Shown: one piece after another, positions 2,711 to 6,878 of the stretch
Position numbering within the stretch: the first letter of the stretch is position 1
Layout of the letters: each line of letters begins with the position of its first letter
NCBI GenBank assembly: GCA_030041195.1
Contig: JASHOI010000353.1
Location: forward strand, 1 to 6,878
Length of the DNA: 6,878 bases
Direction: 5' to 3'
Source: Streptosporangiaceae bacterium
GTDB lineage: Bacteria; Actinomycetota; Actinomycetes; Streptosporangiales; Streptosporangiaceae
Program-made: the position numbers and the translations under genes
Notes under the pieces: model-generated
Databases searched by the model: none
Told to the model about the DNA's origin: nothing
Seen by the model: only the letters and a program-made list of their open reading frames with translations

Positions 2711-3514
2711 CTAGTCCCCGCCCGTGTCGGCGTCCCTTGCGGCGAGGAACCGCGCCGGGATCTCGCCGCCGCCGTGCACGGCCAGGTCGGCGCCGGTGAC
2801 GTAGGCGGCCAGCGGAGAGGCCAGGAACAGGCAGGCCGACGCCAGGTCGGCCGGCTCGGCCATCCGGCCCATGGGGATCGCCCGCGCGACCGACGCGCCG
2901 CGGTCCTGGCCGTAGTGCTGCGCCGCGCTCTCGGTCAGCACCAGCCCGGCGGTGATGTGGTTGACCCGGACCTTCGGCGCCCACTCCAGCGCCAGCGACC
3001 GGGTGAGCTGCACCAGGCCGGCCTTGGCGGCGGAGTACGCGGCGCTGAGCGGCGCCGCCTGGTGCGCCGACACGCTGCCGATGTTGACGATCGATCCGCC
3101 GCCGTCCTGTTGCTGCATGACCGCGTTGGCCGGCTGGGACACGTAAAACGGTGCGAGCAGGTTGAGCGCCACGATCCGCTCAACGAACCGGGGCGAGACC
3201 GAGGCCGCGTCCGCGTTCGGCGACCCGCCCGCGTTGTTGACCAGCACGTCCAGCCGCCCGAACGCGTCGACAGCGGCGTCGGCCACGGCCCGGGCCTGCG
3301 CCGGGTCGCGGACGTCGGCAGCGGTGAACACCGCCGAGCGCCCGCCGGAGGCGGGCAGCCGCTCGGGCTCGTTCCGGCCGCAGACCAGTACGTCGGCGCC
3401 GGCGGCAAGAAAGGTCTCGGCGATCACCCGTCCGATGCCGCGGGTGCCGCCGGTGACGACGACCGCGCGGCCGGTGAAGTCGGCCGGGCGGGCGGGACCG
3501 GCGGGGGAGTCCAT
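2711..3514 (-). CDS. SDR family NAD(P)-dependent oxidoreductase, classical type
   Basis: The product is a 267-residue short-chain dehydrogenase/reductase that probably interconverts a hydroxyl and a keto group on a CoA-linked or alicyclic intermediate. The cofactor loop is TGGTRGIG (21-28), the NNAG motif is at 93-96, the structural Asn is N118, and the catalytic residues are Ser147, Tyr160 and Lys164. The Pro-Gly motif after the active site is replaced by Ala-Gly (189-190). A Gly-rich HGGGE follows the last strand, where many family members have DGG. The start codon is one base after the thiolase stop (TGA-G-ATG) and there is no strong ribosome binding site, so translation is probably coupled. 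It is the last gene of the operon. It resembles SDRs of mycobacterial HIP-degradation loci (possibly the Rv3549c type) rather than IpdF, but that comparison is from memory. The substrate is not determined. Confidence 0.92.
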   Translation of the reverse strand: MDSPAGPARPADFTGRAVVVTGGTRGIGRVIAETFLAAGADVLVCGRNEPERLPASGGRSAVFTAADVRDPAQARAVADAAVDAFGRLDVLVNNAGGSPNADAASVSPRFVERIVALNLLAPFYVSQPANAVMQQQDGGGSIVNIGSVSAHQAAPLSAAYSAAKAGLVQLTRSLALEWAPKVRVNHITAGLVLTESAAQHYGQDRGASVARAIPMGRMAEPADLASACLFLASPLAAYVTGADLAVHGGGEIPARFLAARDADTGGD

Positions 3515-3515
3515 C

Positions 3516-4667
3516 TCAGCCGAGGCGCTCGATGATCGTGACGTTGGCCTGCCCGCCGCCCTCGCACATGACCTGCAGCCCGTACCGGCCGCCGGTGCGC
3601 TCGAGTTCGTGCAGCAGCGTGGTCATCAGCCGGGCTCCGGTGGCGCCGAGCGGATGGCCGAGCGCGATCGCGCCCCCGTTCACGTTCACCCGGTCCAGAT
3701 CGGCGCCGGTCTCGGCGGCCCAGGCGAGCACGACCGACGCGAACGCCTCGTTGATCTCGACCAGGTCGATGTCGGCGAGCGTCATCCCGGCCTTCGCCAG
3801 CGCGCTCGCGGTGGCCGGTATCGGCGCGGTCAGCATCCACACCGGGTCGGCGCCGCGGACCGACATGTGGTGGATCCGGGCGCGAGGCGTCAGCCCGTGC
3901 GCTCGCAGCCCCGCCTCGCTGACCACGAGCAGCGCGGCGGCCGCGTCGGCGATGGAACTGGAGACCGCGGCGGTGAGCCGCCCGCCCTCGACGAGCGTCG
4001 GCAGCGAGCGGATCTTCGCCCAGTCCGGCGCGCGCGGCGGCTCGTCGGCGGTGAGGCCGAACACCGGCACGATCTCCCGGTCGAACCGGCCCTCGGCGGC
4101 CGCGCGCAGCGCTCGCTCGTGCGACGTAACCGCGAACCGCTCCATGTCCTCGCGGCCGATGTTCCACTTCTCGGCGATCATCTCCGCCGAGCGGAACTGC
4201 GAGATCTCCTGGTCGCCGTAACGGCGCTGCCAGCCGGCCGAGCCGCGGAACGGGTCGGCGAAGCCCAGGGCCTGGCCGGCCGTCATCGCGTAGGAGATCG
4301 GGACCGCGCTCATGTTCTGCACGCCGCCGGCCACGACCACGTCGGCGGTGCCGGACTTGACGGCCTGCGCGGCGAAGTGCACGGCCTGCTGCGACGAGCC
4401 GCACTGCCGGTCGACCGTGGTGCCGGGCACGTGGTCGGGCAGCCCGGCGGCCAGCCAGGCGGTCCGGGCGATGTCGCCCGCCTGCGGCCCCACCGTGTCC
4501 ACGCAGCCGAACACCACGTCCTCGACCGCTCCCGGGTCGATCCCGGTGCGTTCGGCCAGCGCGGTCAGAACGGAGCCGCCCAGGTCGGCCGGATGGACCG
4601 CGGCGAGCCCGCCGCCGCGCTTGCCGACCGGGGTGCGGACCGCGTCCACGATGAAGGCCTCGGGCAT
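3516..4667 (-). CDS. fadA6: Acetyl-CoA acetyltransferase (thiolase), FadA6-like
   Basis: The product is a 383-residue thiolase that would cleave a 3-ketoacyl-CoA with CoA, releasing a shortened acyl-CoA. The acylated cysteine is Cys89 in VDRQCGSSQQA. NEAF (306-309), His338 in GGAIALGHPLGATGA and Cys368 in the CEGGG loop complete the active site. The length is normal and no segment is missing. Several stretches (YGDQEISQFR near 150-159, EGGRLTAA near 227-234, ARIHH near 263-267, ANVTIIERL at the end) match my memory of mycobacterial FadA6. That enzyme acts late in steroid C/D-ring (HIP) catabolism, and its gene also lies directly downstream of kstR2. ATG 4667 follows a TAGGGT at a spacing typical of leaderless mRNAs, although AGGG could also act as a ribosome binding site. 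The downstream SDR begins one base after the stop. The thiolase assignment is very secure; the FadA6 subtype is probable. Confidence 0.93.
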   Translation of the reverse strand: MPEAFIVDAVRTPVGKRGGGLAAVHPADLGGSVLTALAERTGIDPGAVEDVVFGCVDTVGPQAGDIARTAWLAAGLPDHVPGTTVDRQCGSSQQAVHFAAQAVKSGTADVVVAGGVQNMSAVPISYAMTAGQALGFADPFRGSAGWQRRYGDQEISQFRSAEMIAEKWNIGREDMERFAVTSHERALRAAAEGRFDREIVPVFGLTADEPPRAPDWAKIRSLPTLVEGGRLTAAVSSSIADAAAALLVVSEAGLRAHGLTPRARIHHMSVRGADPVWMLTAPIPATASALAKAGMTLADIDLVEINEAFASVVLAWAAETGADLDRVNVNGGAIALGHPLGATGARLMTTLLHELERTGGRYGLQVMCEGGGQANVTIIERLG

Positions 4668-4673
4668 GTGCTG

Positions 4674-4679
4674 ACCCTA
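4674..4679 (-). promoter_or_regulatory. Candidate -10 element of the thiolase operon (leaderless start)
   Basis: On the minus strand TAGGGT is followed by six bases and then ATG 4667. A TANNNT hexamer at this distance is the usual layout for actinobacterial leaderless transcripts that begin at the start codon itself. The adjoining operator touches its first base and would cover the spacer and -35 side. No -35 consensus is visible. This is a prediction from position and sequence only. Confidence 0.45.
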
Positions 4680-4692
4680 CCAAGCGCTTGTT
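4679..4692. promoter_or_regulatory. KstR2-type operator upstream of the thiolase
   Basis: ACCAAGCGCTTGTT matches the published KstR2 pattern AnCAAGnnCTTGnT at every fixed position. It contains a perfect 10-base palindrome, CAAGCGCTTG. It lies in the 32-base gap between the TetR gene and the thiolase and abuts the predicted -10. A repressor bound here would block transcription of the thiolase and the SDR. The adjacent gene encodes a KstR2-like protein, which makes the assignment strong. Confidence 0.8.
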
Positions 4693-4699
4693 CGGAAGA

Positions 4700-5350
4700 C
4701 TAGGGCGCGCCCTTCGCCGCCCTGGCCCTGGCCTTGGCCGGCCCGTCGGCCTTCCGCTGGGCGTGCGCTGGGGCGGCGAAGCCGTGCAGGAACAGTGACG
4801 TCACGTCCTCGGCAAGCTGGTGCGTGGAGTACGGGCCGTCGGGCCGGTGCCACCGGATGGACAGCCACACCGCGTCGCGGATCAGCCGGTAGAACACCCA
4901 CGACGGGATGTCGTCGCGGAAGACGCCCTCGGCCACACCGGCCGCGATCACCTGCAGCCAGGTCTGCTGGATCTCGGCCGCCGCCGACTGGATGTTGCTG
5001 AAGCCCGGCATCTCGCGCAGGTACTGAGCCTCGTTCTGGTAGATCGCCGTCGCGTGCGGCTGCTCCTCGGCAATCTCGAGCGAGGTGACCACGAGATCGT
5101 GCAAGCGCTCGGCCGGCCCCTTGTCGCTCGCGAGCACCACCGCGTACCGCGCCCGTATCGCGTCCAGGTAGCGGGTCAGCACCTCGTCGACGATCGCGTC
5201 CTTGGACGGGAAGTGGTGATACAGGCTGCCGGACAGCACGCCGACCGCGTCCGCGATGCCGCGCACCGTGGTTGCCCGCAGTCCCTTGCGAGCGAACATC
5301 TCCGCGGCAGTGGAGAGGATCAGCTCACGTCGGTCCTGGACTTCTGCCAT
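4700..5350 (-). CDS. kstR2: TetR family transcriptional repressor, KstR2-like
   Basis: The product is a 216-residue TetR regulator. The N-terminal helix-turn-helix (about residues 25-50) reads LRATTVRGIADAVGVLSGS then LYHHFPSK. The C-terminal ligand domain carries IYQNEAQYL (103-111) and the IRDAVWLSIRWHRPDGP region (157-173). These match mycobacterial KstR2 as I recall it. In KstR2 an Arg and a Trp four residues apart contact the HIP-CoA ligand; here Arg158 and Trp162 have the same spacing. ATG 5350 is chosen because GGAGGG sits 7 bases upstream; an in-frame TTG at 5392 would add 14 unlikely residues. The protein is longer than the 200-residue Mtb homologue because of an Ala/Lys/Arg-rich tail from about residue 196. 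Operators before this gene and before the thiolase suggest autoregulation and control of the operon. The effector is probably a steroid-derived or similar alicyclic acyl-CoA, by analogy only. Confidence 0.9.
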   Translation of the reverse strand: MAEVQDRRELILSTAAEMFARKGLRATTVRGIADAVGVLSGSLYHHFPSKDAIVDEVLTRYLDAIRARYAVVLASDKGPAERLHDLVVTSLEIAEEQPHATAIYQNEAQYLREMPGFSNIQSAAAEIQQTWLQVIAAGVAEGVFRDDIPSWVFYRLIRDAVWLSIRWHRPDGPYSTHQLAEDVTSLFLHGFAAPAHAQRKADGPAKARARAAKGAP

Positions 5351-5357
5351 CTGCAGA

Positions 5358-5363
5358 CCCTCC
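5358..5363 (-). promoter_or_regulatory. Ribosome binding site of the TetR regulator gene
   Basis: On the minus strand GGAGGG stands 7 bases before ATG 5350. It is the strongest Shine-Dalgarno on this strand and decides the start of the regulator in favour of 5350 over the upstream TTG 5392. Confidence 0.75.
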
Positions 5364-5412
5364 GGCGATATAGTAAGCCGCGACCGCAGCAAGATGCCGG
5401 TCCTGTGCGCTG

Positions 5413-6207
5413 CTATCCTACCTGGCTACCTACCAAACGCTTGCTTGGATCCGCGGGTAACTGAGTCACGGTCCAGCCGCCGTCGACCACCAGCAGCGCG
5501 CCGCCGATGTAGGACGCGAGCGGGCTGAGCAGGAACAAGATGGCCCACGCGATCTCGTCTGGCCGGGCCAGCCGCCCGGCCGGGATCCGCGCCAGGGTCC
5601 GCTGCCCGATCTCGCTGGCCGTGAAGCCGGCCAGCCGCGGGGTGTCGGTCATGCCAGGGGCCACCGCGTTAGCCCGCACCCGATCGCGGGAGTAGGTGGC
5701 CAGGTGCCGGGTGTAGCCCATGATGGCCGCCTTGGTGGCCGGGTACCAGTCCGGTTCGGTGCCGATCAGGTTGCCGGCCACCGACGACACGTTCACCAGC
5801 GCCGCTTCGGCCGGCACGGCGCGCGCCAGCCAGGCCTCGGTCACCCGGCGCACGCTCGCGACGCCCGCCAGCAGCCCGTCCTCGAAGGGCATGTCAGCCG
5901 CGCTGGCCGGCCCGGCGTTGTTGACCAGGTAGCGCGCCGTGCCGAGGCCGGCTTCGGTCGCGTCGAGCGCGGCCCGCACCTGGCCGTGATCGGTGACGTC
6001 GGCGCGGACCGCGAGTGCGTCGCCGCCCATGTCCCGGATCGTGTCCGCGGTGGCCTCGGCGCCGTGGCCGGCCAGGTCCCACGCGGCGACGCGCAGGCCA
6101 ACGGCGGCGGCGCTCACCGCGGTCGCCTTTCCGATCCCGCTCGCCGCGCCCGTGACGATGACCGCGTCCCCGGGCGCGAAGCCGAGCCGGACCTCGTCAG
6201 GCGCCAT
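5413..6207 (-). CDS. SDR family NAD-dependent oxidoreductase, classical type
   Basis: The product is a 264-residue short-chain dehydrogenase. It has the cofactor loop TGAASGIG (19-26), Asp44 at the end of the second strand (AAWDL, favouring NAD(H)), NNAG (96-99), and catalytic Ser142, Tyr155 and Lys159. APGM (183-186) follows, and the last strand ends in VDGGW (241-245). It probably oxidises a hydroxyacyl or alicyclic alcohol; the substrate is unknown. ATG 6207 is chosen because the Rossmann fold starts about 15 residues later; a longer in-frame extension to 6360 would only overlap the upstream gene. Its first 11 bases overlap the end of the preceding SDR gene, implying coupling. The tail after VDGGW is about 19 residues long and its DNA contains the second operator and the predicted -10 of the regulator. 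Without that regulatory DNA the protein would end close to the family's usual terminus. Confidence 0.92.
   Translation of the reverse strand: MAPDEVRLGFAPGDAVIVTGAASGIGKATAVSAAAVGLRVAAWDLAGHGAEATADTIRDMGGDALAVRADVTDHGQVRAALDATEAGLGTARYLVNNAGPASAADMPFEDGLLAGVASVRRVTEAWLARAVPAEAALVNVSSVAGNLIGTEPDWYPATKAAIMGYTRHLATYSRDRVRANAVAPGMTDTPRLAGFTASEIGQRTLARIPAGRLARPDEIAWAILFLLSPLASYIGGALLVVDGGWTVTQLPADPSKRLVGSQVG
5415..5420 (-). promoter_or_regulatory. Candidate -10 element of the TetR regulator gene
   Basis: TAGGAT on the minus strand fits the actinobacterial TANNNT pattern. The operator at 5432-5445 lies 11 bases upstream, covering the spacer and -35 region as expected for repression. Its final T is also the first base of the SDR stop codon. 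The predicted leader would be near 57 bases. TACTAT (minus strand, 5370-5375) is an alternative -10, but it lacks a -35 and lies farther from the operator. Confidence 0.45.
5432..5445. promoter_or_regulatory. KstR2-type operator upstream of the TetR regulator gene
   Basis: ACCAAACGCTTGCT matches AnCAAGnnCTTGnT with one mismatch (A for G at the sixth base). Read on the minus strand, both operators share A-n-CAAGCG-n-TTGGTAGG, with the extra GGTAGG just downstream of the palindrome. It sits about 80 bases before the regulator start and inside the 3' end of the SDR coding sequence. It probably mediates autoregulation of the repressor. Confidence 0.7.
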
Positions 6208-6878
6208 AACCGCCGTCCACGTCGAGTTTCTGGCCGCTGATGAAGCGGGCCCGGTCGGAGGCCAGGAAGCAGACCGCCTCGGCGACGTCCGCGGCGGATC
6301 CGAACCGGTACAGCGGTGTGTTGCGCCTGGCCACGGCGAGGGCACGCTCGTCCAGGTCACCGGACCCGATGAGGCGGGCGGCCATCCCGTCGGTCAGCAT
6401 CCCCGGGCCCACGCAGTTCGCGCGTACCCCGAAACGGCCCTCTTCCGCGGCGATCCCGCGGACGGCCGCCTCGATCGCGGCCTTCGGAATCGAGGACAGC
6501 CCGTCGCGTACCGCATACCGCGTGGTCGCGGCCGTGGTCACGGCCACCAGGCTGCCCCCGCTCACCCGCAGCAACGGGATCAGCGGCACCATCGCGGTGA
6601 GGAACGCGATCGCGTCCTGCTCGAGCTGGCAGCGGAAGACCTCGGCCTTGACGTTGCTCAGGTGCACCATCGGCACGTGCGGGCCGGCCGCGTAGACGAC
6701 GGTGTGCAGCACGCCGAAGTCGTCGGCGACGGTGGCGGCGACCCGCGCGCACGCGGCCGCGTCGGTCAGATCGAGCTGATAGCCGCGGGCGCGGTCCGGG
6801 CTGCGCGCGGCGAGTTCGGCGACGGCGGGGGACGGGCGCCGGTACGTCATCGCGACCCGGCTGCCCCTGGCGAGCAGC
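6197..6878 (-). CDS. SDR-like protein lacking the catalytic Tyr, 5' end outside window
   Basis: The frame is open to the right edge, so the visible 226 residues lack the start codon and the N-terminal glycine-rich cofactor loop. The rest is an SDR fold: LLARGSRVAMTYR after the first helix, a DLTD segment (36-39), YAAG (62-65) where NNAG is usual, GPGM (157-160), and a C-terminal DVDGGYGA. The active site departs from the family. Lys132 is kept in PKAA, but the Tyr four residues before it is Ser128, and the expected Ser is Thr115. A Tyr occurs at 121 but in the wrong register. The protein may be a non-catalytic partner, use another mechanism, or catalyse a different reaction. Its stop lies inside the start of the next SDR gene (11-base overlap), so the two are probably made together. 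The frame is intact throughout, which argues against decay. Confidence 0.88.
   Translation of the reverse strand, partial: LLARGSRVAMTYRRPSPAVAELAARSPDRARGYQLDLTDAAACARVAATVADDFGVLHTVVYAAGPHVPMVHLSNVKAEVFRCQLEQDAIAFLTAMVPLIPLLRVSGGSLVAVTTAATTRYAVRDGLSSIPKAAIEAAVRGIAAEEGRFGVRANCVGPGMLTDGMAARLIGSGDLDERALAVARRNTPLYRFGSAADVAEAVCFLASDRARFISGQKLDVDGGYGA

Follow-up and report, generated by a model that had tools for sequence, protein, structure and literature searches.

A KstR2-type repressor gene and two predicted operators at a fadA6-like locus of an uncultured Streptosporangiaceae bacterium

We analysed a stretch of 6,878 nucleotides from a Streptosporangiaceae bacterium (contig JASHOI010000353.1), from end to end called the window in the following. 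The genes on its minus strand are arranged in the order SDR, SDR, regulator, thiolase, SDR. The second SDR gene upstream of the regulator (6197–6877) is open at the window edge; like the SDR gene next to the regulator (5413–6207, family scan on 5416–6201), it was recognized from the ORF list and by a family scan. The regulator gene lies at 4700–5350, where a preliminary description had placed it, and encodes a TetR repressor of the KstR2 type with 216 aa from the ATG at 5350, which we took as the start because the same ATG is common to the related loci L001, L002 and L003. Directly downstream lies the FadA6-like thiolase gene that had been proposed there (3516–4667), matching NF005865 with 670.6 bits (cut-off 591), followed by an SDR gene (2711–3514) matching NF005893 with 362.5 bits (cut-off 255). 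The plus strand carries the C-terminal part of an acyl-CoA dehydrogenase gene (1–501), a Usp gene (591–1127) and a sensor kinase gene (1328–2701). The kinase gene is not accompanied by a response regulator gene within the window, and Rfam gave zero matches there.

Both its sequence family and its place next to a KstR2-type regulator identify the thiolase as FadA6-like. It is 94% identical to the thiolase of the closest relative (L148) and 70% identical to a Rhodococcus thiolase encoded beside a KstR2 (L189). The fadA6-like gene and the SDR gene behind it are probably on one transcript; the pair recurs in L002, L003, L004, L016 and Trebonia, while L148 has no SDR gene behind fadA6. Homologues of the SDR gene at 5413–6207 adjoin KstR2-type regulators in L005 and L007. 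The remaining genes had been regarded as a background outside known KstR2 loci. This view fits the Usp and kinase genes (591–2701), since L148 has neither between its thiolase and acyl-CoA dehydrogenase genes, but not the acyl-CoA dehydrogenase fragment, whose best family is IpdE2, as a partial match of a truncated gene (NF050027, 139.2 bits, cut-off 450). A kinase gene also follows the fadA6-SDR pair of Trebonia, with only 32% identity over 312 residues; we dropped the kinase as a conserved neighbour because this value is possible between any two kinases and the closest relative has no kinase there.

The regulator contains the domains TetR_N and TetR_C_24. Its closest solved proteins are by far those of KstR2, 4w97 (E = 8.6e-50), 4w1u (9.3e-50) and 2ibd (6.1e-46), whereas the first unrelated structure follows at 4.4e-22. 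We take 4w97 to be KstR2 of M. tuberculosis and 2ibd, labelled in the PDB as a possible transcriptional regulator, to be KstR2 of R. jostii RHA1. The regulator is 45% identical to 4w97 and 42% to 2ibd, compared with 59% between these two. The recognition-helix stretch VLSGSLYHHF is nearly identical to ILSGSLYHHF of KstR2, and the residues aligned with R162, W166 and R170 (M. tuberculosis numbering) are retained. R162 and W166 are presumably HIP-CoA contacts in M. tuberculosis KstR2; our literature search for a paper on these contacts found none. Because the aligned residues are also retained in related regulators for which no HIP genes were found nearby, they discriminate weakly and appear to set KstR2-type regulators apart from outgroups without distinguishing between ligands. 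No NCBIfam model scored above its cut-off for the regulator. Among the orthologues compared in PMC3068626, as far as the available part of that paper goes, identity exceeds 50%, against the 45% between the regulator and M. tuberculosis KstR2.

A motif search recovered the two near-matches to AnCAAGnnCTTGnT on which the preliminary description had been built, one exact and one with a single mismatch. The exact match at 4679–4692 (ACCAAGCGCTTGTT, minus strand AACAAGCGCTTGGT) ends 11 bp ahead of the thiolase ATG and is the candidate operator of the fadA6-like gene. The candidate operator of the regulator gene at 5432–5445 (ACCAAACGCTTGCT, minus strand AGCAAGCGTTTGGT) has its mismatch in one half-site and is located 81 bp upstream of the regulator ATG. 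There it falls within the final codons of the SDR gene preceding the regulator, so that it doubles as coding sequence for part of the C-terminal end of that SDR (SKRLVG). An exact match occurred in 0 of 1000 dinucleotide shuffles of the window. A third match at 5828–5841 was rejected as an operator: it has 2 mismatches, is situated inside an SDR gene and can be accounted for by chance when up to 2 mismatches are allowed (mean 0.56 matches; at least three in 4 of 200 shuffles).

Both candidate sites are conserved beyond their surroundings. At the regulator site, 13 of 14 columns were invariant among four sequences (window, L001, L002 and L003), compared with 41 of 134 columns outside; at the thiolase site, 13 of 14 were invariant among five (the same four and Trebonia), compared with 8 of 47 outside. 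L004 and L016 were not included in these alignments. An exact site precedes the thiolase gene in each of L001–L004, and a site also precedes the regulator gene, exact in L004 and with 1 mismatch in L001–L003. This mismatch is the very one found at 5432–5445, so that the one-mismatch site at the regulator's own promoter is kept in three relatives. Trebonia resembles L004 in having an exact regulator site closer to the start; L016 has its mismatch at another position. These comparisons support two predicted operators that are kept in relatives. The degenerate half and the position within the SDR reading frame might suggest that the regulator site is a chance match and that only the fadA6 site is used. 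We consider this very unlikely, given that 13 of 14 columns, mismatch included, are invariant in four sequences, and that this conservation is seen despite there being no homologue of the window's SDR at that place in the three relatives.

Putative promoters accompany both sites. For the regulator gene, a predicted −10 box TAGGAT (5415–5420, minus strand) lies 11 bp after the operator, and TAGGAT or TAAGAT is found 11–13 bp after it in the window, L001, L002 and L003. For fadA6, the predicted −10 box TAGGGT (4674–4679, minus strand) shares its first T with the operator and ends 6 bases before the ATG. All five thiolase promoters in the alignment have a TAnnnT box that starts on the last T of the operator and is separated from the ATG by 6 or 7 bases, a spacing that points to a leaderless fadA6 transcript. 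No TAnnnT box is present at this position in L016; in L004 the box is there, with the gene start lying further downstream.

A scan of genome contigs for relatives yielded four Streptosporangiaceae MAGs (regulators 92, 82, 82 and 69% identical), Trebonia kvetii, Pseudonocardia, Amycolatopsis and others. The small self-contained regulon that had been predicted for the window is difficult to reconcile with what these genomes contain. In six of six (G001–G006), a distance of 34–87 bp separates the exact motif from the Pfam match to an ipdA-like CoA-transferase, which its partner follows. The 14-mer before these ipdA genes, and before fadA6 in L001 and L004, is the one present in the Rv3557c/Rv3558 gel-shift probe bound by KstR2, according to the accessible sections of PMC3068626. 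The nearest solved alpha subunits to the CoA-transferase of L154 are 6co6 (7.5e-102) and 6con (2e-98). We assume both to be IpdA. The L154 gene heads a run with SDR, acyl-CoA dehydrogenase and enoyl-CoA hydratase genes, whose homologues in a Rhodococcus genome are no more than about 10 kb away from KstR2; in L154 and L159 alike, ipdAB-, SDR-, fadE- and hydratase-like genes form one run behind one operator.

FadD3-like genes likewise appear to belong to the set, adjoining a site in all five closest genomes (G001–G005). Those of G001, G002 and G003 score above the NCBIfam cut-off; the ligases of G004 and Trebonia, beside fadA6, were assigned by homology (65% and 75%). In L002 and L003 the FadD3-family ligase gene lies between regulator and thiolase, and in G001 it is next to ipdA, where the site upstream of it (L146:5941–5954, in the closest relative) has one mismatch. 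The four closest MAGs also encode KshA and KstR above the cut-offs. Because of the motif at ipdA- and FadD3-like genes and of KshA and KstR in relatives, the window is very probably part of the C/D-ring regulon of a steroid degrader.

The Trebonia kvetii genome (G005) has 26 exact motif copies and four KstR2-type regulators, three of them on contig C51. This contig carries 22 of the exact copies, and its region between about 28 and 149 kb (L160, L007, L161, L162) has a second set of fadA6, fadD3, ipdA and ipdB homologues and KshA at 119 kb. A second CoA-transferase pair of this genome is motif-linked. The Trebonia regulator closest to that of the window is located on contig C89 with three motif copies. 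A literature search combining Trebonia kvetii and steroids found no paper.

Exact-motif counts alone are weak evidence, being clearly above those of a reversed control only in some genomes. They were 6 versus 3 in G002, 8 versus 4 in G004, 26 versus 2 in G005, 1 versus 3 in G007, 13 versus 3 in G008, 4 versus 0 in G009, 4 versus 10 in G010 and 12 versus 10 in G011. That they do not exceed the control in G001 (4 versus 5), G003 (3 versus 5) and G006 (6 versus 8) would fit the explanation that both motifs of the window are there by chance and the regulator controls other genes. With the result of the window shuffles and the footprints at both sites, this explanation has a negligible probability. 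We inspected 19 of the 21 exact sites in G001–G004. Nine adjoin regulator, fadA6, fadD3 or ipdA genes and 10 lie elsewhere; by ORF calling, 9 of the 19 fall inside predicted frames, two of these (G002 C368, G003 C435) through a start called upstream of the real gene. One of the 10 sites elsewhere (L147:5204–5217, G001 contig C307) is found between a divergent alcohol-dehydrogenase-like frame and two SDR-like frames and marks a possible further regulon member.

The preliminary description had compared the regulator with KstR2. The kind is borne out by the PDB matches and by the phylogeny, the close kinship with the tested proteins is not. Of 64 regulator sequences, a first tree used all but the fragment L032; a second also omitted 6 long branches and 15 near-duplicates, 21 sequences in all. 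In the resulting 42-sequence tree, rooted with outgroups, all KstR2-type sequences form one group (100/99), and the window regulator belongs to a lineage of 30 (100/98) without the tested M. tuberculosis and R. jostii proteins, so that it does not share with these a clade excluding other KstR2-like regulators. Holding a 6-sequence group containing the window together with the 5-sequence group of tested proteins was rejected (p-AU 3e-13), the former group having been named after inspection of the first tree. The position of the tested proteins differs: the first tree shows them as a separate clade (94/90), the second as a base from which the window lineage springs. A quick tree of 151 sequences again set the window lineage apart (33–35 sequences, 94–96), with weak support at the base. 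This separate lineage speaks against a plain KstR2 label.

Both kinds of KstR2-type regulator are present in the Rhodococcus and Nocardia genomes searched. Amycolatopsis rhizosphaerae (G008; L192, L193) has two KstR2-type regulators on separate contigs with different HIP-gene homologues near each; whether both kinds are represented depends on the tree, and one is possibly of the classical kind. The pair would make this genome a natural setting for examining cross-talk on a single operator. A search of titles and the beginnings of abstracts turned up no publication describing a second KstR2 lineage, which does not show that none has appeared, and the main text of PMC4810484 has no word beginning with 'streptospor'.

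The regulator could be a KstR2 paralogue that uses the same operator, responds to another CoA thioester, of a different polycyclic or terpenoid acid, and controls a side pathway that includes a FadA6-like thiolase. Besides the phylogeny, the duplication of lineage members would fit, as in Trebonia with its four regulators and the motif-rich contig, and so would some Rhodococcus and Nocardia members for which no HIP genes were found in the stretch examined. We nevertheless regard a paralogue of this kind as improbable: each of the four closest relatives has a single KstR2-type regulator above 100 bits in the assemblies searched, the motif accompanies their ipdAB-like genes, and the aligned contact residues are retained. 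What argues against a different ligand are the sites that accompany ipdAB-like and FadD3-like genes.

In a wider sample of the class, comprising 109 regulator loci (L194–L302) as part of the places listed, a thiolase of at least 55% identity was encoded within the stretch at 69 loci. At 39 loci, a site deviating by no more than one mismatch lay between 60 bp inside and 350 bp upstream of the regulator gene; the other 70, many beside a FadA6-like thiolase, had no such site near the regulator, and their regulators may use different operators. The operator centre was considered as a mark of lineage, being in the first genomes mostly CG near the window lineage and CA/TG near classical KstR2. It was dropped because CG is commoner in the wider sample, at 26 of 32 exact best sites and also next to FadA6-like thiolases, and because CG is likewise the centre of the Rv3557c site of M. 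tuberculosis. KstR2-type regulators are common, since a match at 1e-36 was found in 107 of 394 genomes of the class of Trebonia and in 145 of 200 of the family of G001, mostly with 37–46% identity among the matches listed.

We favour, with a probability of about 0.83, the reading that the regulator is a HIP-CoA-responsive repressor of itself and of fadA6 within one arm of a dispersed C/D-ring regulon, and the host is best read as a steroid degrader related to the Streptosporangiaceae MAGs. The repressor would bind the 14-bp palindrome 81 bp upstream of its own start and beside the −10 region of fadA6, occupying both sites when steroid is lacking. Steroid breakdown would yield HIP, which FadD3 would convert to HIP-CoA; its binding to the repressor would free both promoters, allowing transcription of the fadA6 thiolase gene, the SDR gene behind it and the regulator gene itself. 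A weaker own operator would let the repressor be made while its targets are shut. With further copies of the operator at ipdAB-like and fadD3-like genes in other parts of the host genome, as in its relatives, the regulon would be a dispersed one for the C/D rings.

A further-reaching proposal assigns control of the HIP regulon in streptosporangiaceous and some pseudonocardial actinobacteria to a second lineage of KstR2-type repressors that separated long ago; operator and ligand contacts would be those of mycobacterial KstR2, the wiring different. In the window and its nearest relatives, the operator would overlap the −10 box of a leaderless fadA6 promoter, and a conserved half-site defect would weaken autorepression, so that the repressor accumulates and the targets are tightly shut. 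Taken as a whole, this proposal is tentative and rather less probable than its negation, its probability being lowered because L004 and L016 are without the promoter layout and the base of the tree is unsettled.

The system is a known one and ordinary in kind, the modest new point being the lineage together with the promoter layout. It extends a well-studied switch of steroid catabolism to uncultured Streptosporangiaceae and indicates that there is more than one lineage among the KstR2-type regulators with this common operator. This matters for regulon predictions from best BLAST hits, above all in genomes with both kinds, such as those of Rhodococcus and Nocardia.

KstR is the repressor of the upper steroid pathway. 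Like KstR, the window regulator belongs to the TetR family and very probably to steroid catabolism; unlike it, it reaches only 34.4 bits with the NCBIfam KstR model NF033703 (cut-off 280), and the relatives have a separate KstR. The KstR2 regulon of M. smegmatis, M. tuberculosis and R. jostii RHA1 comprises kstR2-fadA6, ipdABC, fadD3 and fadE30-33; it is given as 15 genes by Kendall et al. 2010 in the available part (PMC3068626) and also appears in Table 1 of PMC5380842, likewise available in part. The window shares with it a TetR repressor gene beside fadA6, the same palindrome and the retained contact residues, and in its relatives ipdA-like and FadD3-like genes adjoin the same motif. It differs in the separate lineage of its regulator (45% identity) and in the PRK07856-type SDR gene after fadA6, found also in several relatives. 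In M. smegmatis, kstR2 and fadA6 have no intergenic gap and were taken as one operon (PMC3068626, in the part available), whereas fadA6 of the window has its own predicted operator and predicted promoter. In the predicted KstR2 regulon of Nocardioides simplex, the gene number of kstR2 (KR76_25115) adjoins those of fadD3 and of a second ipdAB, according to the accessible part of PMC7807495; similarly, the regulator gene adjoins fadD3 in L002, L003 and L004.
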